Shown one piece after another: positions 2,406 to 56,064 of a stretch of DNA of 64,000 nt. The DNA is from Rhodoferax sp. TH121. Lineage in GTDB: Bacteria > Pseudomonadota > Gammaproteobacteria > Burkholderiales > Burkholderiaceae_C. How positions within the stretch are numbered: the stretch's first letter is position 1; every line of letters begins with the position of its first letter. Both the position numbers and the translations under genes were made by a program. A model generated the notes under the pieces. The model was not told the origin of the DNA, made no database searches, and worked only from the letters and a program-made list of their open reading frames with translations. The stretch is taken from assembly GCF_002251855.1 (NCBI RefSeq), contig NZ_NOXW01000022.1, positions 62,001 to 126,000 of the forward strand. Direction: 5' to 3'.

Positions 2406-3206
2406 TCAGGTGTTGAGTTCTGCCAGCCGCTCGGGCGTACCGACGTCGGTCCAGCGGCCAGTGTAAATCTCGGCGCTCACCTGTGCTTGCGCCATGGCTT
2501 TGCGCAGCAGGGGCGCCAGTGGGGCTTTCACGCCCTGCGGGTTGCCGGTAGGAATGTCGCACCAGGGCGCGGCAAAGAGTGCCTGGTGAAACAGCGCGAA
2601 GGTGCTGTAGGTGTAGCGCTGGGTGCTGCTGTCGGCAGGCGGGTCCGTGCACAGGCCTACGCCCTGGGCATCCACCTGCTCCAGGCCAAAGTCACCCTTG
2701 CGGTGGTGTGCCGGGTTGGGCACCAGCCACAGGTGGGCCAGCTTGCCACTGGCGGCAAAGCGGTCCACCGCAGCCTGGGTAAACATGAAGTCGGGTGCAT
2801 ACACATCACCCGCCATGGACCAGAACACGGGCGCGAGTTGCGGCAGCGCGCGCGCAATGCCGCCCGCAGTCTCCAGCGCGCCACCAAAGTCGCGCCCTTC
2901 ATGGGAGTAGTGCAAGGCCAGAGCGTTAGAGTTTTGCTCTGCTTTTGATAGCTGTTCACGCAATATTGGCGGCGCCTGTATGCCAATTTGATGCCCAAAC
3001 TGGGTCTCGATCTGCTCGCCCAGCCAGGCGGTGTTTACCACCGCACTGCCAAAGCCGCCTTGCGCCAGCGCCTCCAGGTGGTACTGCATCAGGGGCTTGC
3101 CCTGCACGGCGAGCAGGGGTTTGGGGCAGGTATCGGTCAGCGGGCGCATGCGCTCGCCGCGGCCGGCGGCCAGCACGATGGCGGGGGCGGGTGTGAAAGA
3201 GGGCAT
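2406..3206 (-). CDS. murU: N-acetylmuramate 1-phosphate uridylyltransferase (MurU) carrying an in-frame repeat insertion
   Basis: This nucleotidyltransferase of peptidoglycan recycling makes UDP-MurNAc from MurNAc-1-P and UTP. The signature LAAGRGERMRPLTD (residues 12-25) followed by CPKPLL is the sugar-nucleotidyltransferase motif, and ETAGGIARALP matches MurU. I chose the ATG at 3206 because upstream in-frame codons show no homology. At 266 residues it is longer than the usual roughly 225. The excess maps to residues 73-92, between the IETQFG and YSHEGRD segments, where a 60-bp dispersed repeat (2931-2990) is inserted in frame. The flanking motifs are intact, so the gene is probably functional. 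Confidence 0.92.
   Translation of the reverse strand: MPSFTPAPAIVLAAGRGERMRPLTDTCPKPLLAVQGKPLMQYHLEALAQGGFGSAVVNTAWLGEQIETQFGHQIGIQAPPILREQLSKAEQNSNALALHYSHEGRDFGGALETAGGIARALPQLAPVFWSMAGDVYAPDFMFTQAAVDRFAASGKLAHLWLVPNPAHHRKGDFGLEQVDAQGVGLCTDPPADSSTQRYTYSTFALFHQALFAAPWCDIPTGNPQGVKAPLAPLLRKAMAQAQVSAEIYTGRWTDVGTPERLAELNT
2931..2990 (-). repeat. 60-bp dispersed repeat, copy 1, inside murU
   Basis: Read on the minus strand this begins CAAATTGG, has TTGCGTGAACAGCTATCAAAA in its second half (first 20 bases shared with the family: TTGCG.GAACAGCTATCAAA) and ends near AGC. It is exactly 60 bases, a multiple of three, and adds 20 codons to murU without shifting the frame. The encoded peptide contains LREQLSK. 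Confidence 0.85.
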
Positions 3207-3270
3207 GGGCGCAAAGCATAACCGTGGCCACCCGCTATCATCTTCCCCACCAACATTCAGGGGGGACACC

Positions 3271-4308
3271 ATGGCATTGATGGACTTCATCAAGAAACAG
3301 TTTATTGACGTCATTCAATGGACGGAAGAGAACGACGGCACGCTGGCCTGGCGCTTCCCCATGGCGGGTATGGAAATCCAGAGCGGCGGCACGCTGGTCG
3401 TGCGCGAGTCGCAGCTGGCGGTGTTCGTCAACGAAGGCAAGGTGGCCGATGTGTTTGGTCCTGGCACCCATACGCTCACCACGCAGACCTTGCCGGTGCT
3501 GACCTACCTGAAGAACTGGGACAAGCTGTTCGAGTCCCCCTTCAAGAGTGATGTGTACTTCTTCAGCACGCGCCAGCAGATCGACCAGAAGTGGGGCACG
3601 CCCCAACCCATCACCATCCGTGATGCCGACTTTGGTGCCGTGCGCCTGCGTGCCTTTGGCAATTACGCCTTCCGCATTGCCGACCCCAAGCTCTTCCACA
3701 CCGAAATTTCGGGCACGCGCGAGAACTACACCACAGCGGACATTGACGGCCAGCTGCGTGGCCTGGTGTTGCAGAACATCAGCAATGCGGTGGCGAGCAG
3801 CGGCATTGCGTTTTTGGATTTGGCGGCCAACCAGCTGAGTTTTGCGCAGGCACTGACCCGCCAGCTCGCGCCCGAGTTCGAGAAGATCGGCCTGAAGCTC
3901 GAAGGCATGACGGTACAAAACGTGTCGTTGCCCGAAGAGCTGCAGAAAGTGCTGGACCAGAAGATCGGCATGGGCATGGTTGGCAACGACATGGGCAAGT
4001 TCATGCAGTACCAGACGGCACAGGCCATCCCCAAGTTTGCCGAGGGCGCAGGCTCGGGCGGCGTGGCGGGCGATGCAATGGGCCTGGGGGCTGGTGTAGC
4101 GCTGGGCCAGGTGCTGGCGCAGAACCTGGCTGCCGGTTTGCAAGCGCAGGCTGCACCTGCAACCGCCGCTGTGGCCGCGGCTGCAGGCGTGAAGCCCGAG
4201 GATGTGATGGCCACGCTGGAGAAGCTAGGCGACCTGAAAACCAAAGGCATCCTGACGCAGGAAGAGTTTGACGCCAAGAAGGCGGAACTGCTGAAGAAAC
4301 TCGTGTAG
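3271..4308 (+). CDS. SPFH/Band-7 family protein with C-terminal SHOCT domain (YdjI-like)
   Basis: The SPFH domain spans roughly residues 1-250 and follows the YdjI subfamily (MALMDFIKKQFIDVIQW start, GPGTHTL, FFSTRQQIDQKWGT). A Gly/Ala-rich linker leads to a C-terminal SHOCT helix pair (about 308-345: LGDLKTKGILTQEEFDAKKA). There is no signal peptide; YdjI-like SPFH proteins are peripheral scaffolds on membranes. The ATG at 3271 follows a GGGGGA ribosome site. It is the first gene of a plus-strand run with DUF4178, DUF350 and a spermidine-synthase-like protein, a recurrent membrane-stress gene neighbourhood. Confidence 0.88.
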   Translation: MALMDFIKKQFIDVIQWTEENDGTLAWRFPMAGMEIQSGGTLVVRESQLAVFVNEGKVADVFGPGTHTLTTQTLPVLTYLKNWDKLFESPFKSDVYFFSTRQQIDQKWGTPQPITIRDADFGAVRLRAFGNYAFRIADPKLFHTEISGTRENYTTADIDGQLRGLVLQNISNAVASSGIAFLDLAANQLSFAQALTRQLAPEFEKIGLKLEGMTVQNVSLPEELQKVLDQKIGMGMVGNDMGKFMQYQTAQAIPKFAEGAGSGGVAGDAMGLGAGVALGQVLAQNLAAGLQAQAAPATAAVAAAAGVKPEDVMATLEKLGDLKTKGILTQEEFDAKKAELLKKLV

Positions 4309-4409
4309 TCGTCGCTGGGGCGGGCGCAGCGGCAGAGGGCTCTGCTGCGTGTCCCCCGCCCGTGGGCTCCTCCTTTACCTCCGCATAACCCTCTACCGCT
4401 CCGCCCTCC

Positions 4410-5939
4410 TTGGCTAACGAGACCGTTGCTCCTCAACGCGCCTACCGGGCCCCGTGCCCGGGCTGTGGCGCGCCTGTCAACTTCCTGAGTGCACAAAGCA
4501 CGCACACCATCTGTGCGTACTGCCAGAGCACCGTGGTGCGCAAGGGCGAGGTTCTCGCGCGCATTGGCAAGATGGCCGAGCTGTTTGATGACCACAGCCT
4601 GCTGCAGTTGGGTGCCAGCGGCAGCTGGAACGGCCAGAGCTTCACGCTGTTGGGGCGCCTGCAATACAAGTATGGCGAAGGCACCTGGTCCGAATGGCAT
4701 GCGGTGCTGGGCGATGGCAGCAGCGCCTTCCTGAGCGAAGACAACGGCGCCTATGTCTTCACCACCGCGCAGCCCGTCCAGCGCAACCTGCCTGCGGCCG
4801 AGCGTTTTCGTGTGGGTGCTATCACCGCTATCAACGGTCAATCGTTCAGTGTGGCGTCGAACCAGCTTGTGGCGCTGGTCGCGGCGCAGGGCGAATTGCC
4901 GCGTCTGCCTGAGCTGGGCCGCAGCTTTGCCATGGTGGAGCTGCGCAGCGAGGCCGCGGACGCCAAGAGCACGGGTGAAGTGCTCAGTGTCGACTACAGC
5001 ACCCAGCCACCCAGCGTGAGCATGGGCCGCTCGGTGCAGCTGGACGAGCTGAAGCTCACAGGTCTCAAGGACAACGCGTCAAAGGAAGAAAAAGGTCGGC
5101 AGTTTGCCTGCCCAAACTGCGGCGCCACACTGGAGGCCCTGCTGCTCACCACCCAGAGCATGAGCTGCAAGTCCTGCAACACACTCATCGACCTGTCGCA
5201 AGGTATTGGGGGTGAACTCAAACATGCCGTGCAGGACGAGCCCATCCAGCCCCTGATTCCCTTGGGGACGGTGGGCATGCTGCAGGGCGCGTATTGGCAG
5301 GTGGTGGGCTTTCAGCACCGCATGGGCACCGAGCCCGCTGACCCTGATGAGCATTTTGGTTGGGAGGAGTACCTGCTTTACAACGCCAAGCGCGGATTCA
5401 TTTTTCTGGTTGATTCGACCGATGGCTGGAGCGTGGTCAAGCCCACCACGGGTGCACCCGTGGTCAGCAGTAGCCAGCAAACGGCGACGTACCTGGGTAC
5501 CCATTACCAGCTCAAGGAAAGCTATACCGCGACCACCAACTATGTGGTGGGCGAGTTTTACTGGCAGGTGCAACGTACACAGAAAACGGAGAACCGGGAC
5601 TACCGCAGCGGCAAGAGTCTGCTCAGTTCCGAGCGGTCGGCCCACGAGCTCACCTGGTCCGTCGGCAGCACCATCGACAGTGCCACGATTGCCCGTGTCT
5701 TCAAGTTGCAGACTGATAAGGCGGCGCTCCAGCGCAGTGATGTCGGACCACTCTCTGGGTCTAGCAACCCCTTGATGCGGCAAGAGTTTTGGGTGTTCAT
5801 CGTGGTGGTGCTGTTTTTCCTGGCCATGACGCGCTGCTCACCCAATTGCGACCCGAGCGTGGAGAACTGCTCCAGCAGCAGCTACCGTTCCTCGGGCGGC
5901 TCGTACGGCGGCTTCTCGTCGGGTGGCGGACACAAATAG
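4410..5939 (+). CDS. DUF4178 protein with two zinc ribbons and a C-terminal membrane anchor
   Basis: The N-terminal zinc ribbon has CPGCG (about 16-20) paired with CAYC (about 36-39), followed by a DUF4178 beta domain (SFTLLGRLQYKYGEGTWSEW). A second ribbon CPNCG...CKSC lies near residues 234-256, and a second DUF4178-like domain follows (YWQVVGFQHRMG). A hydrophobic segment near residue 465 (WVFIVVVLFFLAM) anchors the C-terminus, which ends in a Ser/Gly-rich tail. The start is TTG at 4410, chosen because the ribbon begins shortly after it; no in-frame ATG is nearby. Molecular role unknown; it is linked in context to SPFH and polyamine-type enzymes. Confidence 0.85.
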   Translation: MANETVAPQRAYRAPCPGCGAPVNFLSAQSTHTICAYCQSTVVRKGEVLARIGKMAELFDDHSLLQLGASGSWNGQSFTLLGRLQYKYGEGTWSEWHAVLGDGSSAFLSEDNGAYVFTTAQPVQRNLPAAERFRVGAITAINGQSFSVASNQLVALVAAQGELPRLPELGRSFAMVELRSEAADAKSTGEVLSVDYSTQPPSVSMGRSVQLDELKLTGLKDNASKEEKGRQFACPNCGATLEALLLTTQSMSCKSCNTLIDLSQGIGGELKHAVQDEPIQPLIPLGTVGMLQGAYWQVVGFQHRMGTEPADPDEHFGWEEYLLYNAKRGFIFLVDSTDGWSVVKPTTGAPVVSSSQQTATYLGTHYQLKESYTATTNYVVGEFYWQVQRTQKTENRDYRSGKSLLSSERSAHELTWSVGSTIDSATIARVFKLQTDKAALQRSDVGPLSGSSNPLMRQEFWVFIVVVLFFLAMTRCSPNCDPSVENCSSSSYRSSGGSYGGFSSGGGHK

Positions 5940-5965
5940 GATTTGGAACTTTCAAGGAGATGGCC

Positions 5966-6178
5966 ATGGAATGGTTGAAACCGGATGTGGTGTTGGGCTC
6001 GGTGCTGTACGCAGTGATCGGCGTGCTGATCTTCTGGATCTGCTTCATCATCATTGACAAGATCACGCCCTACAACCTGTGGCTGGAGATTGTGGAGAAG
6101 CAGAACAAGGCACTGGCCATGGTGGTGGCCGCCATGTCGCTGGGCATTTGCATCATCGTGGCGGCAGCCATTCACTAA
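5966..6178 (+). CDS. DUF350 (YjfL-like) small membrane protein
   Basis: This 70-residue protein has two hydrophobic helices (about residues 8-30 and 48-68) separated by the charged DKITPYNLWLEIVEKQNKALA loop (first 20: DKITPYNLWLEIVEKQNKAL). That pattern is one DUF350 unit. AGGAG at 5955-5959 lies 6 bases before the ATG at 5966, which decides the start over the ATG at 5960. DUF350 proteins accompany DUF4178, SPFH/PspA and spermidine-synthase-like genes in many bacteria (E. coli yjfL); a channel-like or membrane-sensor role is only inferred. Confidence 0.85.
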   Translation: MEWLKPDVVLGSVLYAVIGVLIFWICFIIIDKITPYNLWLEIVEKQNKALAMVVAAMSLGICIIVAAAIH

Positions 6179-6299
6179 TGCCCCCCACGCTCCACCGCTA
6201 CGCGGGTCGCCGCCCCCCGAGGGGGCGCGTTTTGCCTTGGGGCGGCCCGGCGGCAAAACATGCCTCCGCTCGCCACTATTCAAGTTGGGCGGCCCTCAG
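6179..6299. repeat. GC-rich intergenic hairpin region between DUF350 and speE-like genes
   Basis: A 7-bp stem CGCCCCC (6211-6217) / GGGGGCG (6221-6227) with a CGA loop is followed by CGTTTTG. It resembles intergenic hairpins common in Comamonadaceae and could act as an attenuator or weak terminator. No reading frame here looks real. Confidence 0.5.
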
Positions 6300-7862
6300 G
6301 TGAAACCTGAGTCTTCCCAGCCCACCGGGCCACGTCCGGTGGAGGTCGCGCTGCTCGCCTCTGTGTTTGTGGTGGCGGCGTGCGGGCTGGTGTACGAGCT
6401 GGCGGCGGGTGCGCTGGCTTCCTACTTGCTGGGCGATTCGGTGCTGCAGTTCAGCACCGTGATTGGGGCTTACCTGTTTGCCATGGGCATTGGCTCTTGG
6501 TTATCGCGCTTTTTCGAGCGCCAGCTCACCGCCCACTTTTTGCGCATAGAACTGCTGGTGGCCCTCGCCGGTGGTACGTTACCAGCGATTCTTTTTGTCG
6601 CACATGCCTGGGCTCCCGGTTCATTCCGTTTGGTGCTCTACGCGATGGTGCTGCTGGTCGGCATGCTGGTGGGGCTGGAGATTCCGCTGGTCATGCGCAT
6701 CCTCAAGCGCAACGTGGCGCTCAAGGACTTGGTTTCGCAGGTGCTGACCTTTGACTACCTGGGCGCGCTTGCGGTCTCCGTCGCGTTTCCGCTCTTGCTG
6801 GTGCCCAAGCTGGGCCTGGTGCGCACCGGGCTGCTGTTCGGCTTGTTGAATGCCGCCGTCGCCCTATGGGCACTGTGGCTGTTTCGCCATGAGCTCCGGC
6901 GCTTTGCGGCGCACGCCTGGGCCTGTGCTGGGGTGTTGGCCCTGCTGGGCGCGGGCATGGCCGCCGCCGACCACATCACCACCTGGGCCGAAGACCGGCT
7001 TTACCAGGACAAAGCCATCATCGCGCAGTCCAGCCCCTACCAACGTATTGTGGTGACCCATTCACCGGGCGAGGGCCAGTTGGGCTACCGCCTGTTCCTC
7101 AACGGCAACTTGCAGTTCGCCCAGCGCGACGAATACCGTTACCACGAAGCGCTGGTGCACCCCGCCATGGCTGCGTTTTCAGCGACCGGAGCTTCGCCCA
7201 AAAAGGTGGCCGTGCTGGGCGGTGGCGACGGCATGGCGGTGCGCGAAGTCCTCAAGTACTCTGGCGTGGAGAGCGTCACGCTGGTGGAGCTGGATCCGGC
7301 TATGACCGCGCTGTTTACGCGAACACCGGAGTTGGCGGCGCTCAATGCCGAAGCGCTGCGTTCGTCCAAAGTGAAGGTCATCAACACCGATGCCTTCACT
7401 TGGCTGCAGGGCACAGACGAGGTATTTGATGTCATCGTGGTGGACTTTCCAGACCCTACCAACTTCTCGGTCGGCAAGTTGTTCACCAACGCCTTCTACG
7501 CCCTGCTCGACAAGCATCTGGCTGCCAGCGGCTACGCCGTAGTGCAGACCACCTCGCCGCTGATCGCACGCAAGAGCTTTTGGACTGTGGTCACCACCAT
7601 GGAGTCGGTAGGCCTTACCGCCACGCCGTACCACGCCCATGTGCCCAGCTTTGGTGAATGGGGCTTTGTGCTGGCTAGCCGTCGCCCGTTCCGCTTGCCA
7701 ACGGCACTGCCTGCGGGCCTGCGCTTTCTCAGCGTGCCCAGCCTGCCGTTGTTGTTCGAGTTCCCCCAAGACATGGCCCGCGTGCCTACCGAGGTCAACC
7801 GCCTCTCCAACCAGGTTCTGGTGACCACGTATGAAGAAGAATGGGGCAGGGTGGCCAAATGA
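6300..7862 (+). CDS. Membrane-anchored spermidine synthase-like aminopropyltransferase
   Basis: About 210 N-terminal residues form a bundle of some seven hydrophobic helices (ALLASVFVVAACGLVYELAAG onward, first helix about 15-35), fused to a cytosolic aminopropyltransferase domain. In that domain SPYQRIVV, LFLNGNLQFAQRDEYRYHE, the AdoMet loop VAVLGGGDGMAVREVL, the acidic VELDPAM and DVIVVDFPDPTN are all visible. Soluble SpeE proteins lack the membrane half. I chose GTG at 6300 because the upstream frame is repetitive GC-rich leader. The stop overlaps the next ATG (ATGA). Substrate uncertain: polyamine transfer to an unknown acceptor is inferred, supported by an AdoMet decarboxylase gene at 13719. 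Confidence 0.85.
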   Translation: MKPESSQPTGPRPVEVALLASVFVVAACGLVYELAAGALASYLLGDSVLQFSTVIGAYLFAMGIGSWLSRFFERQLTAHFLRIELLVALAGGTLPAILFVAHAWAPGSFRLVLYAMVLLVGMLVGLEIPLVMRILKRNVALKDLVSQVLTFDYLGALAVSVAFPLLLVPKLGLVRTGLLFGLLNAAVALWALWLFRHELRRFAAHAWACAGVLALLGAGMAAADHITTWAEDRLYQDKAIIAQSSPYQRIVVTHSPGEGQLGYRLFLNGNLQFAQRDEYRYHEALVHPAMAAFSATGASPKKVAVLGGGDGMAVREVLKYSGVESVTLVELDPAMTALFTRTPELAALNAEALRSSKVKVINTDAFTWLQGTDEVFDVIVVDFPDPTNFSVGKLFTNAFYALLDKHLAASGYAVVQTTSPLIARKSFWTVVTTMESVGLTATPYHAHVPSFGEWGFVLASRRPFRLPTALPAGLRFLSVPSLPLLFEFPQDMARVPTEVNRLSNQVLVTTYEEEWGRVAK

Positions 7863-8332
7863 CCCATGGATCCCAATCACCCTACAGCTACCGCGATGAC
7901 CCGGCGGTCCCGCGTTTTGCCGATGACAAACCCCTCATCGTTTTTGACGGGCACTGTGTGCTGTGTTCCGCGTGGGCCAACTTTGTGCTCAAGCACGACC
8001 GCAACATGGTCTATCGTTTGCTCGCAGCGCAGTCTCCGCTGGGCCAGGCCTTGTATGCCCACTACGGCTTGGGTGGCAGCGACTACCAGAGCAATCTGCT
8101 GATCGCGTCAGGGTGCGTGTACATCAAGTCCGATGGCACCCTTCGTATGTTCAGAGGTCTGGGCTGGCCGTGGCGCTTGGTCGGGGTGTTGCGTGCGTTT
8201 CCGCTGCCATGGCTGGACGCGCTCTACAGCGTGGTGGCGCGCAACCGCTTGCGCTGGTTTGGCCGGCGTGAGGTTTGTTACTTTCCGGCGCCCGAAGACG
8301 CAGACCGCTTTGTGGCGGGCGAGGCGCCGTGA
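7859..8332 (+). CDS. DCC-family thiol-disulfide oxidoreductase-like protein (DUF393/YuxK)
   Basis: The motif FDGHCVLCSAWANFVLKHD (about residues 27-45) is the DCC signature, here D-G-x-C-x-x-C, the thioredoxin-like redox site. Length (157) is typical. The ATG at 7859 overlaps the stop of the spermidine-synthase-like gene and its own stop overlaps the next GTG, so the four genes from 6300 to 10493 are translationally coupled. The partner is unknown; the flanking FAD oxidoreductase suggests a redox pathway. Confidence 0.88.
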   Translation: MTHGSQSPYSYRDDPAVPRFADDKPLIVFDGHCVLCSAWANFVLKHDRNMVYRLLAAQSPLGQALYAHYGLGGSDYQSNLLIASGCVYIKSDGTLRMFRGLGWPWRLVGVLRAFPLPWLDALYSVVARNRLRWFGRREVCYFPAPEDADRFVAGEAP

Positions 8333-8880
8333 ACTCGCCCGCCAGTCTATTTCAGCGGGTGCTGGGAGGTGCCTTTGCGCAGCTGTCTCCGGCCCTGCAG
8401 CGCTGCCACCAGCCCGGTGAGCACTTGGTGTTGCGTGGCCAAGCCTCGGTGCAGCGTGGCTCGGGATGCTTGGCCCGGCTGGTGTGCTGGTGCATGGACT
8501 TTCCTGCGGCGGGGGAGGCGGTGCCGGTCCAGGTGCGCATGGAGGCGCTAGACCAGGGGGAACGTTGGCTGCGTACATTCGGTACGAAACAATTTGCCAG
8601 CCATCTACTGCAAGAGCATGGTGCACAGCCCGGCATGTTGGTAGAGCAATTCGGCCCGCTGCGGGTGCAGATTGCCGTGACGGTGGTGAACGGCGCTTTG
8701 CATTGGGCGGTGTACGGTGGCGCCGTCTGGCGCCTGCCTTTACCCGCCTGGTGTTTGCCCACAGGCGACAGTCGCGAGTTTGAGTCGGAGGGGCGTTTCC
8801 ACTTCGATGTTGAGATTACGCATCCCTTCACCGGGCGCATCGTCCACTACCGCGGCTGGCTGGCGCCGTACAAGCGGTGA
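8329..8880 (+). CDS. DUF4166 domain-containing protein
   Basis: This 183-residue protein matches the DUF4166 layout: N-terminal FQRVLGGAFAQLSPALQRCH, a central RTFGTKQFASHLLQEHG segment and a C-terminal FHFDVEITHPFTGRIVHYRGWL. It starts at GTG 8329 overlapping the upstream TGA and ends overlapping the GTG of the FAD oxidoreductase. In other genomes DUF4166 occurs fused or adjacent to saccharopine-dehydrogenase-like and DCC proteins. No catalytic residues can be assigned; no signal peptide is seen. Confidence 0.8.
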   Translation: MNSPASLFQRVLGGAFAQLSPALQRCHQPGEHLVLRGQASVQRGSGCLARLVCWCMDFPAAGEAVPVQVRMEALDQGERWLRTFGTKQFASHLLQEHGAQPGMLVEQFGPLRVQIAVTVVNGALHWAVYGGAVWRLPLPAWCLPTGDSREFESEGRFHFDVEITHPFTGRIVHYRGWLAPYKR

Positions 8881-10493
8881 GGCGGCGCAGTTTTCTGGCC
8901 GCTGCGGCCCCCGTGCCATTGTGGGCCTGCAGTGCTGCTGCGGATTCTGCTGCGCACATCACCGGCGGTTTCACGGGAAATGACCACGCACGCGGCCACC
9001 AACTGCGTGACCGCAAGACCTGGCCCACGCCCGCCGTTACCCACCGGGCCCACACCGTCATCGTGGGTGGTGGTGTGGCGGGCCTAGCGGCTGCGCGGGC
9101 CTTGCGCCTGCGCGAGCAAGACGACTTTGTGCTGCTGGAGCTGGAAGACAGGGCGGGCGGCAATGCGCGCGGCGGCACGGTGGGCGGCATCGCATGCCCG
9201 CTGGGTGCGCACTACCTGCCATTGCCCAGCGACGACGCGCCCGAGGTGCAAGACCTGCTGGAAGAGCTGGGTCTGCGCCAGCGCGTGGCCGGGCGCTGGC
9301 AGTACGACGAACGACACCTCTGCCACAGCCCGCAGGAACGCCTGTTCTTCAACGGCGCTTGGCAAGACGGGTTGCTGCCAGTGCACGGCGTGGGCGAGGC
9401 CACGCTGGCCCAGTACCGTCGCTTTGCGGTCTTGGTGGAGCAGGCGCGCCAAGCAGCGAAGTGGACCATTCCAACGCGAAATCGACCTTTGGACACTGTG
9501 CAGCGCGCGCTGGTAGCTATCACTTTCATAGCGTATCTTGACCAAAACGGATTGGACGATCCGCAGTTGCGCTGGTACTTGGACTACTGCTGTCGCGACG
9601 ACTACGGCACTGGCATTGCCACCGTGTCGGCCTGGGCCGGTATCCACTACTTTGCCAGCCGCCACGGCTTCCACGCACCGGGCGCCGAGACGGCCGAGCG
9701 CGAGGGCCTGCTCACCTGGCCAGAGGGTAATGCCTGGCTCACGCGCCGCCTGGCTGCACCACTGGGCGATCGCCTGCGTACAGGCAGCGTCGTGCTGCGT
9801 GTGGCGCAGGGCCGCCATGGTGTGGAGGTGGACGCTTTCAACACCGCCAAGCAGCGGGTCGAGCGCTGGCAGGCCCAGCAGGCCATCGTGGCGCTGCCGA
9901 TTTTTATCGCTGCGCGCGTGGTCGAGGGTGTGCCCGACTTCTTGCGCCAGGCCGCCCAGCGCGTGGTCTATGCGCCCTGGCTGGTGGCCAATATCCACCT
10001 CCGTGAGCCGCTGCGCGACCGGCCTGGTGCCGCGCCCAGCTGGGACAACGTGGTCTACGGAACGCAAGGCCTGGGCTATGTGGACGCCATGCACCAAAGC
10101 CTGCACCCTGTGCCCGGCGCCACCGTGCTCACCCACTACCGCGCGCTGGGGGATGTGCCGGGCGGCCCGGCCGCTGGGCGCCGGCAGCTGCTGGCGCAGC
10201 CCTGGACCTATTGGCGCGACACCATCGTGGCCGAGCTGGCCGCCGCCCACCCCGACCTGGCTGCCAAAGCCACGCGCATGGAGCTGACCCGCTACGGCCA
10301 CGCCATGGCCATCCCCCTGCCCTCCAATCATGGTCAAATTGGTCTCTGGCCCCCGCAAAATCTGCGCAAGCAGCTATCAAAACAGAAGCAACTTGCGCTC
10401 GCTTATGGCCGCCTGCGCTTTGCCCACAGCGACTGGGCGGGCTATTCCATCTTCGAAGAGGCCTTCACGCTGGGGCATTGGGCCGGTGCCTGA
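8877..10493 (+). CDS. Tat-exported FAD-dependent amine-oxidase-like oxidoreductase with repeat insertion(s)
   Basis: A twin-arginine leader (RRRSFLAAAAPVPLWACS, residues 2-19; the Cys suggests a possible lipobox) precedes a GMC/amine-oxidase type FAD fold: VIVGGGVAGLAAARAL (about 61-76), an acidic ELEDRAGGNARGG, YLDYCCRDDYG, and a C-terminal FAHSDWAGYSIFEEAFTLGH. It is the last of four overlapping genes (GTGA start at 8877). Residues 487-506 are encoded by a 60-bp dispersed repeat (10335-10394) just before the conserved RLRFAHSDW motif. A weaker copy lies at 9478-9537. Reading frame and motifs are intact. Substrate unknown; polyamine or amine oxidation is a guess from context. Confidence 0.85.
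   Translation: MRRRSFLAAAAPVPLWACSAAADSAAHITGGFTGNDHARGHQLRDRKTWPTPAVTHRAHTVIVGGGVAGLAAARALRLREQDDFVLLELEDRAGGNARGGTVGGIACPLGAHYLPLPSDDAPEVQDLLEELGLRQRVAGRWQYDERHLCHSPQERLFFNGAWQDGLLPVHGVGEATLAQYRRFAVLVEQARQAAKWTIPTRNRPLDTVQRALVAITFIAYLDQNGLDDPQLRWYLDYCCRDDYGTGIATVSAWAGIHYFASRHGFHAPGAETAEREGLLTWPEGNAWLTRRLAAPLGDRLRTGSVVLRVAQGRHGVEVDAFNTAKQRVERWQAQQAIVALPIFIAARVVEGVPDFLRQAAQRVVYAPWLVANIHLREPLRDRPGAAPSWDNVVYGTQGLGYVDAMHQSLHPVPGATVLTHYRALGDVPGGPAAGRRQLLAQPWTYWRDTIVAELAAAHPDLAAKATRMELTRYGHAMAIPLPSNHGQIGLWPPQNLRKQLSKQKQLALAYGRLRFAHSDWAGYSIFEEAFTLGHWAGA
9478..9537 (+). repeat. Possible degenerate copy of the 60-bp repeat inside the FAD oxidoreductase gene
   Basis: AGCTATCA and ATAGCG fall at the same offsets as in the other copies, and CGACCTTTGGAC resembles the first half. 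It lies in a different codon phase from the other intragenic copies, and the encoded residues look compatible with native family sequence. It may be coincidental. Confidence 0.35.
10335..10394 (+). repeat. 60-bp dispersed repeat, copy inside the FAD oxidoreductase gene
   Basis: CAAATTGGTCTCTGGCCCCC followed by TGCGCAAGCAGCTATCAAAA matches intergenic copies at nearly every position. It contributes 20 codons in frame (residues 487-506), in the same phase as the murU copy, and the peptide contains LRKQLSK. Confidence 0.88.
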
Positions 10494-22403: not shown

Positions 22404-22407
22404 GTGT

Positions 22408-22466
22408 CGAAACGGCCTTTGGGCTCATGGATGTTGCGCAAATAGCTACTGAATTTGTAGCAACTC
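22408..22466 (+). repeat. 60-bp family repeat, 59-bp copy between rarD and the PglL-like gene
   Basis: CGAAACGGCCTTTGGGC and TTGCGCAAATAGCTACTGAA align with the family with one base missing. The 3' part folds as GCTAC...GTAGC. It begins 5 bases after the rarD stop and reaches the convergent pglL-like stop. Confidence 0.75.
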
Positions 22467-26944: not shown

Positions 26945-27004
26945 GAAACCGGCCACTAGACCCCGCCGCTTGTGCGCGAGCAGCTACGGTATTCATAGCG
27001 GATG
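26945..27004 (+). repeat. 60-bp dispersed repeat between zinc-ribbon and CHMI-like genes
   Basis: GAAACCGGCCACTAGACCCC and TGCGCGAGCAGCTACGGTAT align without gaps to the family, and ATAGCG falls at the usual offset. It lies between two minus-strand genes, downstream of the stop at 27043. Confidence 0.75.
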
Positions 27005-30593: not shown

Positions 30594-30610
30594 GCCCCCG
30601 GTTTTGAAGC

Positions 30611-30670
30611 CAAATCGGCCTCTAGCCCCCGTGGAATCTGCGCAAGCAGCTCCTAAAACAGGAGCGCATC
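30611..30670 (+). repeat. 60-bp dispersed repeat between alkB and tapT
   Basis: CAAATCGGCCTCTAGCCCCC and TGCGCAAGCAGCTCCTAAAA are near consensus; TTTTGAAGC precedes it. The 3' part folds as a 6-bp hairpin GCTCCT-AAAAC-AGGAGC. On the minus strand its bases 30653-30655 are the TAG stop of tapT. Confidence 0.88.
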
Positions 30671-35500: not shown

Positions 35501-35544
35501 GGCAGGGACATTTCGGGGGAAGCTGAGCAGGGCGATTCTTGAGC

Positions 35545-35604
35545 CAAATTGGCCGCTAACGCTTGTGCTTATTGCGCAAGCAGCTACCAAAAATATAGCG
35601 TCAA
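35545..35604 (+). repeat. 60-bp dispersed repeat between VOC and 731-aa genes
   Basis: CAAATTGGCCGCTAACGCTT and TTGCGCAAGCAGCTACCAAA align ungapped, ending ATAGCG. Its last bases (complement of 35601-35603) are the TGA stop of the minus-strand VOC gene. Confidence 0.85.
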
Positions 35605-38563: not shown

Positions 38564-38623
38564 AAGGTTGGCCGCTGGCCCCCATGGAATATGCGCAAGC
38601 AGCTATCAATAGATGAGCGATAA
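38564..38623 (+). repeat. 60-bp dispersed repeat between araC-type and ydeI-like genes
   Basis: AAGGTTGGCCGCTGGCCCCC and ATGCGCAAGCAGCTATCAAT align ungapped to the family. Bases 38613-38615 of the element are the ATG of the ydeI-like gene. Confidence 0.85.
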
Positions 38624-46917: not shown

Positions 46918-48792
46918 ATGCTGTGGAGTGGGCCCGCCAGCCGGGCTGCCAGGCTGGCGCGCGGGTGGCTGGCCGCCGTGTGGCTGTGCCTGCCCGTGCT
47001 GGGCGCTGCACAGGGCATGGCGGTGGTGCCTGCGGGCAGCGTCGGGCAAGACGTGACCCCCCATTGGCTGCATGTGGCCGATCCGCGTGCGGACATGACC
47101 ATCGATCAGGTGCGGCAGCTGGCGGTGCAAGGGCCCGACAGCCCCTGGACGGCACCTGCCCCCAACGGGTCTGCGGTGGGGTTTGGCTTTACCAAGGCGG
47201 CCCACTGGCTGCGCCTGACCCTGCGCAACCCAACTGCCGAGCCCAGTGCGCAGATGTTGGAGATTGCCAACGCCCGCCTGTCGTACCTGGACTTTTTTGC
47301 GCCCGATGCCACCGGGCAGTACCAGGCCATCCGCACCGGGGGCGACACGCCGTTTGCCACCCGGCCGTATGCCAGCAGGCACTTTGTGTTCCCGCTGACG
47401 GTGGCGCCCCATAGCGAGCAGGTGCTGTATGTGCGGGTGCAGTCCACCACCGGGCTGGTGGTGCCCGCCAAGCTGTGGCCGGCGGCCGATTACTCCAAGC
47501 ACCAGCGGGACGACTACATGGTGCAGTCGGTGTACTTCGGGGTGGCGGCGGCCATGATTCTGTTCAACCTGCTGCTGTTTGTGGCGCTGCGCGACCGGGC
47601 GTATTTGCTGTACGTGAGTTTTGCCGTGTCTTCGGTGCTCATCTTGGCGGCCAAGGCGGGCTTGTGGGACGAGTTCTTGTGGCCCCACCACTGGCGCCTG
47701 ACCAGCGCGGCCTTCTACACCGCGGTGTCGGTGGGGTTTGTGTCCTTTTTCCAGTTCACCCGCATCATGCTCAGCACGCCGGAGCAGATGCCCCGCACCG
47801 ACAAGGCGCTGCGTGTGCTGTCGGCCTTGCATGTGGTGGCGCCGGTGCTGTACTGGACCAGCTTTGCCCTGGTGGCCCCCTACGCGATTGGCGTGATTGC
47901 GTTCAGCGCGATCACGGCCTTTGGGGTGGGGGTGTGGGGCATGATCCGCAGAATGCGGGCCGCCTATTTCTTCATGGGCGCGTTTTCCATGTTGCTGATC
48001 GGCGTGTTCATGGTGGTGCTGCGATCGGCCGGGCTGCTGCCCACCAATGTGTTCACGGTGGATGGCGCCTTACTGGGATCGACGCTGGAGATGCTGTTGC
48101 TGGCCTTTGCGCTGGCGGACCGATTCAACCAGTTGCGCCGCGAAAAAATCAACGCCCAGCAGCAGCTGATGGAGACGCAGCAGCGCTTGCTGGAGAACCT
48201 GCAGTCGTCCGAGCGCATCCTCGCACAGCGGGTGGACGAGCGCACCGAGCAGCTGCTGGCCCTGAACCAGAAGCTGGAAGCCCTGAGCATGGTCGATGGC
48301 CTGACGGGCATTGCCAACCGGCGCCAGTTTGACCAGGTGCTGGCCCGCGAGTGGACGCACATGCAGCGCAAGGGGCACAACCTGGCGCTAGTGATGCTGG
48401 ATGTGGACTACTTCAAGAGCTACAACGATGTGTGCGGGCACCAGGCGGGCGACGAGTGCCTGCGCAGTGTTGCCCAGGCCATTGCCAGCATTTGCCGCAC
48501 GGGGGACCTGGTGGCGCGCTACGGCGGCGAGGAGTTTGTGATCATCGCCCCCGGCACCGACGGCCTGCAGGCTGTGCAGCTGGCGCAGCGCGCCTGCGAT
48601 ACGGTGCGCGCCCTGGCCATGCCGCACCCGCTGGAACATGCCGCGGTGGTGACGGTGAGCTGCGGTGTGGCGGTGATGGTGCCCAGCGCCGACAGCACCC
48701 TGGAAGCACTGCTGGGTTATGCAGATGCCGCCCTCTACCAGGCCAAGGCCCGTGGCCGCAACCAAGTGGCAGGGGGCGATTTTGAAGCCTAA
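46918..48792 (+). CDS. Membrane-bound diguanylate cyclase (7TMR-DISM + GGDEF)
   Basis: This predicted c-di-GMP synthase has a signal peptide (about 1-33), a periplasmic DISMED2 beta domain (to about 180), seven membrane helices (about 200-410), a coiled coil and a GGDEF domain with RYGGEEFVII. The inhibitory I-site RTGD lies five residues upstream of GGEEF, so product inhibition is expected. ATG 46918 is chosen for the signal; ATG 46840 is possible. The TAA stop falls in a 60-bp repeat, so the FEA end is repeat-derived. Confidence 0.9.
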   Translation: MLWSGPASRAARLARGWLAAVWLCLPVLGAAQGMAVVPAGSVGQDVTPHWLHVADPRADMTIDQVRQLAVQGPDSPWTAPAPNGSAVGFGFTKAAHWLRLTLRNPTAEPSAQMLEIANARLSYLDFFAPDATGQYQAIRTGGDTPFATRPYASRHFVFPLTVAPHSEQVLYVRVQSTTGLVVPAKLWPAADYSKHQRDDYMVQSVYFGVAAAMILFNLLLFVALRDRAYLLYVSFAVSSVLILAAKAGLWDEFLWPHHWRLTSAAFYTAVSVGFVSFFQFTRIMLSTPEQMPRTDKALRVLSALHVVAPVLYWTSFALVAPYAIGVIAFSAITAFGVGVWGMIRRMRAAYFFMGAFSMLLIGVFMVVLRSAGLLPTNVFTVDGALLGSTLEMLLLAFALADRFNQLRREKINAQQQLMETQQRLLENLQSSERILAQRVDERTEQLLALNQKLEALSMVDGLTGIANRRQFDQVLAREWTHMQRKGHNLALVMLDVDYFKSYNDVCGHQAGDECLRSVAQAIASICRTGDLVARYGGEEFVIIAPGTDGLQAVQLAQRACDTVRALAMPHPLEHAAVVTVSCGVAVMVPSADSTLEALLGYADAALYQAKARGRNQVAGGDFEA

Positions 48793-48848
48793 TTGGCCTC
48801 CAGACCTTATGGATACTGCGCAAACAGCTCCTGAAAACATAGCACTTA
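48789..48848 (+). repeat. 60-bp dispersed repeat after the diguanylate cyclase gene
   Basis: CTAATTGGCCTCCAGACCTT and CTGCGCAAACAGCTCCTGAA align ungapped, preceded by TTTTGAAGC. Positions 2-4 of the element are the TAA stop. Its second half is closest to the nagA-end copy. Confidence 0.85.
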
Positions 48849-54876: not shown

Positions 54877-56010
54877 ATGACGACTTCCTTCCGCACCCTG
54901 CAGGGCAACATCCTCACGCCCACCGGTTTTGTGCACGGCACGCTGACGCTGGATGTGCAGGGGCGCATTGCTGGCATCACGGGCACCCCGGTGGCCACCG
55001 CTGCGGTGCGCGACAGCGCGGAGCCCATCGTGCTGCCCGGCTTCATCGACCTGCATGTGCACGGCGGCGCGGGCCACGACATCATGGAAGGCGGCGACGC
55101 AGCGCTGCACGTGGCCACGCTGCATGCGCGCCATGGCACCACCAGCCTTCTGGCCACCACCATGACGGCACCGCAAGCCGACCTGGATGCGGCCTTTGCG
55201 GCCATGGGGCCACTGTGCGCGCAGCGCACGCCCAATGCGGCACGCGTGCTGGGCGTGCACCTGGAAGGCCCCTACATCAGCGAGGCCCGCTTGGGCGCGC
55301 AGCCACCGTTTGCACGGCCGGCCAACTTTGACGAAATCCACCGCCTGCACGCCATGGCGCCCATCCGCCTGATCACGCTGGCACCTGAGGTCGGTGGCAA
55401 CCACGACCTGATTGCCCAGCTGGTGGCCGAAGGCTTCAAGGTGCAACTGGGCCACACCACCGGCAGCTACGAGCAAGGCGTGGCAGCGCTGCGCTGCGGC
55501 GCCACGGGCTTCACGCATTTGTTCAACGCCATGTCGGCCCTGCACCACCGCGAGCCGGGCATGGTGGGCGCCGCGCTGGCGCACGCCGAGTTTGCGGAGG
55601 TGATACCCGACTTGCTGCATGTGCACCCGGGCGCCATCCACACGGCGCTGCGCGCCATCCCGAAGCTGTATTGCGTGACTGACTCCACGTCTGCCGCGGG
55701 CATGCCCGATGGCGACTACAAGCTGGGCCGCCACACCGTGACCAAGTGCATGGGCGGCGTGCGCCTGGCCGACGGCACGCTGGCCGGCTCGGTGCTGAGC
55801 ATGGACCAAGCACTGCGCAACCTGGTGAACACCCTGGGCCTGAACCTGGAGGACGCCTCCAAACGCGTCTCCACCTACGCCGCCGATCATCTGGGACTGC
55901 AAGACCGCGGGCGTTTGCAGGCTGGCGCCTGGGGCGATGTGGTGGTGCTGGACCGCGACCTGGCCTTGCAAGCGGTGTGGGTGGAAGGCCAAGAAGTGCT
56001 ATTGAATTAG
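54877..56010 (+). CDS. nagA: N-acetylglucosamine-6-phosphate deacetylase
   Basis: This amidohydrolase yields glucosamine-6-phosphate. It has the H60-x-H62 motif (DLHVHGGAGHDIMEGG), LEGPYI, a metal His in VQLGHTTGSY and catalytic Asp in VTDSTSAAGMPDGDY. Length (377) is standard. It is the second gene after the GntR regulator. The last codons and TAG stop are from a 60-bp repeat in antisense orientation (56008-56010). nagB or a GlcNAc kinase is not in the window. Confidence 0.94.
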   Translation: MTTSFRTLQGNILTPTGFVHGTLTLDVQGRIAGITGTPVATAAVRDSAEPIVLPGFIDLHVHGGAGHDIMEGGDAALHVATLHARHGTTSLLATTMTAPQADLDAAFAAMGPLCAQRTPNAARVLGVHLEGPYISEARLGAQPPFARPANFDEIHRLHAMAPIRLITLAPEVGGNHDLIAQLVAEGFKVQLGHTTGSYEQGVAALRCGATGFTHLFNAMSALHHREPGMVGAALAHAEFAEVIPDLLHVHPGAIHTALRAIPKLYCVTDSTSAAGMPDGDYKLGRHTVTKCMGGVRLADGTLAGSVLSMDQALRNLVNTLGLNLEDASKRVSTYAADHLGLQDRGRLQAGAWGDVVVLDRDLALQAVWVEGQEVLLN

Positions 56011-56052
56011 GAGCTGTTTGCGCAGTATTTATAAAGGCTAGAGGCCAAAATG
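55993..56052 (-). repeat. 60-bp dispersed repeat at the nagA end
   Basis: On the minus strand it reads CATTTTGGCCTCTAGCC with CTGCGCAAACAGCTCCTAAT. Ungapped to the family. It gives nagA its stop at the same repeat position that gives tapT its stop. Confidence 0.85.
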
Positions 56053-56064
56053 GCCAAAAAACGC

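Follow-up and report, generated by a model that had tools for sequence, protein, structure and literature searches.

Several classes of short repeat dispersed through bacterial genomes have been described. The uptake signal sequences (USS) of Pasteurellaceae and the DNA uptake sequences (DUS) of Neisseriaceae are reported, in the portions of the two sources used here (PMC1626085, PMC3630211), to be numerous on both strands with no preferred orientation, to favour noncoding DNA while also lying within genes, where USS are not insertions, and to be limited to families and to have lineage versions; the USS core is accompanied by A/T-rich segments, and the DUS has no flanking motif. Rickettsia palindromic elements (RPE) measure 105-146 bp and carry long stem-loops and terminal inverted repeats (PMC2229807), and repetitive extragenic palindromes (REPs) are palindromes of 20-40 bp (PMC3733652), according to the passages of those papers on which we draw. 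The BRE repeat (Hot et al. 2011, PMC3110155) is listed for Rhodoferax, Acidovorax, Polaromonas and Delftia in the part of that paper that we used; its length is given there as about 90 bp and its GC content in Bordetella as 69%, a Bordetella genome has 8-22 copies and Delftia acidovorans SPH-1 has 13, and some copies lie wholly within genes. Here we describe another repeat, found in a 64,000-nucleotide stretch of Rhodoferax sp. TH121 (contig NZ_NOXW01000022.1, positions 62,001 to 126,000; hereafter the window, the whole stretch that was analysed), where copies lie in frame within murU and within a gene for an FAD-dependent oxidoreductase. On balance, the comparison of copies within and between genomes leads us to read them as sites of a DNA recognition signal dispersed through the genomes of some Comamonadaceae.

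The two genes and the copies that they contain are as follows.

2406-3206, minus strand: murU, encoding N-acetylmuramate alpha-1-phosphate uridylyltransferase (Pfam NTP_transferase; best solved relatives MurU 4y7t and 8hhd)
2935..2991 by profile, 2931-2990 as first noted, minus strand: family copy in murU, on the same strand as the gene, frame QIG..LREQLSK
8877..10493, plus strand: FAD-dependent oxidoreductase gene, host of two copies (Pfam Amino_oxidase)
10332..10390 by profile, 10335-10394 as first noted, plus strand: family copy in the FAD/amine oxidoreductase gene, frame QIG..LRKQLSK
9479..9533, plus strand: another copy in the oxidoreductase gene, weaker and read in a different frame, peptide NRPLDTVQRALVAITFIA

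A preliminary description of this DNA had reported the stronger copy in each gene as one 60-bp repeat inserted in frame and encoding homologous peptides. Both copies begin on a codon boundary of the host gene, encode QIGIQAPPILREQLSKAEQN (murU) and QIGLWPPQNLRKQLSKQKQL (oxidoreductase), have orientation and codon phase in common and are identical at 39 of 60 bases and 11 of 20 residues, and they are genuine: the chance level for the murU copy, taken as the best ungapped identity in 60 first-order Markov sequences of 64 kb, averaged 30.8 and reached at most 34 of 60. The unit itself is better described as about 54 conserved bases plus an upstream T-rich tract than as 60 bp. The weaker copy, absent from that description, has an E value of 0.025 on its own, and seven further homologues have it at the same place and in the same frame (E 1e-8 to 0.015). 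Among the 45 loci listed, the source-genome MurU is nearest to those of Rhodoferax sp. TS-BS-61-7 and Curvibacter sp. GWA2_63_95.

A profile search of the window returned nine copies at E <1e-11, the profile having been trained on those copies; besides the stronger copy in each of the two genes, they are:

22406..22462, plus strand: copy between genes
26946..27000, plus strand: copy between genes (simple gene caller)
30608..30666, plus strand: copy overlapping a gene end (by gene calls)
35542..35600, plus strand: copy between genes
38568..38619, plus strand: copy between genes
48786..48844, plus strand: copy overlapping a gene end (by gene calls)
55997..56055, minus strand: copy overlapping a gene end (by gene calls)

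With a later profile (E up to 1e-3), 120 copies were found in an own-genome sample of 864 kb, comprising the window and 40 further stretches; the reversed sequence gave no match even at E up to 0.1. By proportion, the 3.99-Mb source genome would have about 550 copies. A search for just the 13-base core, with at most one mismatch allowed, counted 293 occurrences, against 7 of the backward pattern. The near-total absence of gaps (119 of the 120 copies are gap-free) implies a fixed register, in which columns 29, 30, 37, 39 and 51 are invariant (117 copies tabulated). The consensus spans about 55 bases without gaps. Its core is near-invariant, made up of TGCGCRAGCAGCT and ATAGC with about nine variable bases between them, and short tracts of A or T accompany it. 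Over core columns 27-39, 39 of 84 nongenic copies are exact and 22 have a single mismatch, the figures for 33 genic copies being 11 and 10. The A/T tracts are all-A or all-T more often than column frequencies predict, at columns 0-2 in 61 of 71 copies where a share of 0.48 is expected, at columns 44-46 in 48 of 84 (expected 0.22) and in the upstream tract in 41 of 67 (expected 0.50), and they recur with a period of 10-11 bp, about one helical turn, in own nongenic (P 0.002) and genic copies (P 0.003), these P values coming from shuffled columns with the likeness of neighbouring columns ignored. That a dispersed repeat family of Comamonadaceae is at hand, in frame in protein genes and with length differences at both of the sites first noted, is borne out.

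Conservation between genomes falls on the core. The 328 kb compared contain 47 own copies, and for 28 of them the flanks could be mapped in Rhodoferax TS-BS-61-7, Curvibacter GWA2_63_95 or both, giving 36 pairs at about 85% DNA identity. The copy is retained in 35 pairs; the remaining one has a stretch of the same size without a match, and no deletion was seen. With a copy detectable in 35 of the 36, pair selection explains little. An in-register cut was possible in 32 pairs, three of the 35 orthologue pairs being left out for want of a 54-base register. The 13 core columns, defined here by at least 1.4 bits among paralogues, were identical between orthologues in 223 of 234 cells at nongenic sites, against 541 of 738 in the other columns, and in 177 of 182 against 442 of 574 at genic sites, that is, 95-97% as against 73-77%, and column information correlated with orthologue identity (rho 0.62 and 0.54).

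The same is seen within coding sequence. The murU copy is present in 25 distinct homologues, Acidovorax included (24 beyond the source gene; E up to 0.04), and its core leucine is encoded by CTA in 23 of the 25, whereas CTA accounts for 12 of the 775 leucine codons elsewhere in these genes; in the oxidoreductase the core leucine is CTA in 8 of 9. The CTA count was taken from an in-register listing, which needed E up to 0.5 and was used to 0.04, so that murU copies with a lost core would escape it; a MAFFT alignment misplaced the Acidovorax core codons, and locus L105, the same as L003, was excluded when codons and versions were counted. In the A/T tract, orthologous sites alternate between CAAAT and GTTTT forms, by which the MurU peptide goes from HQIG to HVLG. 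We take core conservation, CTA retention and A/T-tract switching, as read from these alignments, to indicate constraint on the DNA rather than on the peptide.

The copies also come in lineage versions. Those of Acidovorax radicis have a different consensus in columns 14-27 (33 copies, from a profile built on the 30 best-scoring loci, which favours copies resembling the source-genome version), and log-odds between the two profiles, applied to each copy when left out, placed 83 of the 84 own copies and 30 of the 33 from Acidovorax correctly. At the orthologous murU site, copies match the version of their own group in all 13 distinct Rhodoferax-type genes and in 9 of the 12 Acidovorax-type genes, and two Acidovorax loci (L193 and L199) that map with both flanks around own copies differ in the same way by eye, unscored. 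The Acidovorax version (L187-L216) has an inverted repeat, GCGCTTAT...ATAAGCGC, that is missing from the Rhodoferax type and could be a dimer site or a hairpin.

Across genera, presence is mostly high or nil. Matches were found in 40 of the 120 Comamonadaceae genera sampled and none in the other 80, and in 25 genera 30-42 of the 42 scored candidates matched. An order-wide sample gave matches in 12 of 300 genomes, 5 from the family itself (including the source genome) and 7 from outside it with one marginal match each. Of the genomes searched by name, 17 of 19 matched, with at least 150 matches each in A. radicis, A. benzenivorans and OS-4, 94 in A. soli, 57 in Paracidovorax wautersii, 38 in Comamonas aquatica and 3 in Comamonas koreensis; two Delftia genomes had none by the family model. 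Within the genus-level group, six sister genomes, chosen because their first loci held no copy, had none in 276 kb and three others had 13 in 120 kb; an enlarged motif-free comparison set had none in 781 kb. With one copy as query at E up to 0.01, a weak test, 2 of 72,556 plasmid records and none of 50,697 phage records matched.

By the simple gene caller, 66 of the 120 copies are intergenic, 21 lie across a gene end and 33 are within genes. The intervals of the 85 nongenic copies that were classed (2 of the 87, at stretch ends, were left out) are tandem for 49, convergent for 32 and divergent for 4, the available length of intervals of at least 55 bp being 40, 16 and 29 kb, respectively. Genic copies occupy all six frames, with 12, 9 and 8 in the three favoured ones, 2 in the frame of the two copies first noted and 1 in each of the others. 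Strands are even in genome G007, where the 150 best-scored copies divide into 74 plus and 76 minus and are balanced per megabase (runs P 0.04).

The repeat is a family in fixed register, with a core conserved at genic and nongenic sites, with lineage versions and with a genus presence that is mostly high or nil. Like USS and DUS, it lies on both strands without orientation bias, in noncoding DNA and in genes. DNA-level constraint, occurrence in all frames, versions, high-or-nil presence and gap-free genic copies parallel the behaviour of uptake signals, and it is for this likeness that we favour a DNA recognition signal. A sequence-specific DNA-binding machinery would read the motif, and selection or molecular drive would keep or rebuild it at each site; the encoded peptides would then be by-products, and the MurU model, which matches solved MurU structures, has pLDDT <50 at residues 75-83, in the stretch holding the copy, as fits a tolerated by-product. 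Three forms of such a signal can be considered: (i) an uptake signal, which we put forward tentatively and by analogy; (ii) another chromosome-wide binding site, of a nucleoid or segregation protein, which seems less likely still; and (iii) an unspecified DNA-level role, to which the remainder of our confidence in a DNA signal goes. Length, density, random spacing and true length gains are unlike uptake signals, which is why the uptake role is retained as the likeliest form only. At about 55-70 bases and 64-77 bits, the motif differs from the 9-10 base core of USS and DUS, and some of its genic copies bring extra length. To our knowledge, no known uptake sequence approaches 55-70 bases in length; none of the open-access papers listed by our searches names uptake specificity in Comamonadaceae.

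Several observations weigh against a DNA recognition signal: (i) taken whole, the intergenic element is no better conserved than noncoding flanks (463 of 594 against 234 of 301 identical positions), the core alone being so; (ii) presence is not strictly all-or-none, since 15 of the 120 genera have 1-20 matches; (iii) the density, about one per 7 kb, is below the roughly one per kb given for uptake sequences in the portion of PMC1626085 used here; (iv) in G007 the spacing of the 150 best-scored copies is that of random placement (coefficient of variation 0.98), and a somewhat more regular spacing is described for uptake sequences; (v) Acidovorax copies lack significant helical A/T phasing (P 0.09); (vi) the information, 64-77 bits over 76 columns, is far above the approximately 14 bits that, by our arithmetic, are needed for 550 sites in 4 Mb, which suggests copying at some stage; and (vii) alignment with motif-free homologues opens gaps of 10-19 aa for three proteins: the oxidoreductase, MurU and one that is KsgA-like.

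The last two points bear on the main rival explanation, possible though in our view rather doubtful, in which an ancient small element resembling a miniature inverted-repeat transposable element (MITE) inserted in frame in genes and behind them, the copies being old vertical remains and the core marking a former requirement of its transposase. The motif is like RPE and other bacterial MITEs, as described in the part of PMC2229807 that we used, in being scattered both between genes and, in frame, within conserved proteins. Membership of the RPE, to which the preliminary description had likened it, does not hold, the motif being about 55 bp, about half the length given for RPE, with no consensus stem. 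Fixed length, the information surplus, rarity between divergent genes (4 of 85) and gains of 13-19 aa in the oxidoreductase and MurU over some homologues would all suit insertion. So would a gene pair parted by a copy: response regulator and sensor kinase genes, so named by eye, overlap in OS-4, and about 86 extra bases with a copy lie between them in the source genome (L164:10947-11000, C17, compared with G064, which is OS-4). This genome is more distant and has two clear absences and several diverged copies, with no target duplication readable.

Length comparisons give a divided answer. Ten of 44 genic copies have a spanning homologue in motif-free DNA; 3 of these gain at least 10 aa, 6 gain little or nothing and 1 has an unclear alignment. 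The oxidoreductase has 13-16 aa missing in homologues and the KsgA-like protein is 10 aa longer; MurU is 19 or 10 aa longer, yet only 2-3 aa against two other homologues; a DsbB-like protein and two further proteins have no gap, two more have 3 aa, and a lysine/alanine-rich tail copy aligns loosely, its best match having more gaps on the source-genome side. (We take the KsgA and DsbB names from motifs.) The claim of insertion stands only in part. The oxidoreductase exceeds motif-free homologues by 13-15 aa (about 19 aa for four relatives); its region is short, at 39-41 residues, in two relatives and in four outgroups, and measures 54-67 in the remaining ones. One short-region relative (L036) nests within the long clade with support 97/96 in a tree built without fragment L045, which makes loss there as likely as late gain. 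For MurU the picture is mixed. The segment from EQI to YSHEG has 41 aa, compared with 31 in Acidovorax and 20-31 in most others, and among motif-free relatives two have 39-40 and one 59. Acidovorax and Paracidovorax loops keep one length with or without the motif, so that the absence of a size difference, which had been named as telling against insertion, is seen within this group and not in the oxidoreductase. In 17 Acidovorax-group murU genes in register, the loop is 27 aa in 16 while the motif score grades from 42 to -33, a series that is compatible with a motif being built or being eroded and cannot tell which; L123, skipped by the loop script, has the common 31-aa segment, and L132 and L133 were left out of the series. 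In genome G023 the extra length is kept in both proteins (L028 MurU; L039 oxidoreductase, region 58) and the motif is undetectable, as if the DNA signal had decayed while the peptide stayed.

What speaks against the MITE-like explanation is that core columns are conserved at genic and intergenic sites alike, that the orthologous murU site carries lineage-specific versions, that none of the 36 pairs at about 85% DNA identity shows a loss, that 6 of the 10 genic copies open to this comparison lack a corresponding increase in protein length and that the consensus has neither inverted ends nor a hairpin.

It is improbable that the motif acts at the RNA level, as an mRNA 3'-end signal (stability, termination or processing) that drifted into genes as well. 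Copies in tandem intervals are found at a median of 13 nt behind the upstream stop codon and few lie between divergent genes, as such a signal would lead one to expect; against this, their orientation to the transcript is nearly equal (22 with the genes, 27 against), the identical core is retained in genes on both strands, and consensus structure and covariation are absent, RNAalifold on 60 copies predicting 2 pairs with no compensatory change. A search of the window with Rfam at gathering thresholds returned no match. That the LR[KE]QLSK peptide is a shared functional module, finally, is very improbable: the 11 of 20 common residues and a further LREQLSK reading in a third protein (presumably N-formylglutamate-hydrolase-like), outside the window and the 33-copy sample, would fit it, but 31 of 33 genic copies lie in another frame or strand and give unrelated peptides, only the two copies first noted using this frame, the left part of the murU peptide changes as the DNA alternates between its two A/T-tract forms, and rare synonymous codons are retained, so that the likeness reported as homologous peptides reflects the same DNA in the same register.

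If the copies are a DNA signal, a chromosome-level signal and not protein function would shape protein loops in a family that is common in the environment and associated with plants, and the questions would arise of what reads the signal and of how a 55-base motif comes about and persists in coding DNA; shared peptides, in any case, are not necessarily protein modules. A bolder version, which we offer as speculation, is that the motif constitutes a third, independent family of self-DNA signals, a shape-read Comamonadaceae genome signature of 55-70 bases that comes in lineage versions, fixes rare codons, adds or reshapes loops and would vanish genome-wide once its reader is lost.

We recognised no description of this repeat among the open-access papers listed by our searches, where the nearest printed repeat of these genera is BRE; compared by description (size, GC and hosts) in the part of the paper used here, the latter differs, and the present motif has no match in the two Delftia genomes. 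In that literature the core 12-mer and its complement occur in just two papers, both unrelated. The motif resembles REPs in having hundreds of copies, mostly outside genes, and differs from them in having no palindrome. REP-associated tyrosine transposase (RAYT) genes are flanked on both sides by REP repeats. In the source genome a single PF01797 gene was found, with one truncated copy of the motif in the surrounding 3.3 kb, on the downstream side only; this copy (L217:2161-2208) begins a few bases past the apparent stop, and its match ends at column 48.

An RNA hairpin considered from the dyads GCTMY...RKAGC and TGCGCAAGCA, noticed by eye, was set aside, covariation being absent. An apparent strand polarity in G007, plus-only from 1.2 to 2.96 Mb, had come from an incomplete pattern listing, and the model search found both strands there. 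In the own genome, four copies in one orientation lie within about 4 kb (L100:2709-6724, C20), and the aligned blocks of two relatives start or stop near some of them, as if segments had been exchanged there.

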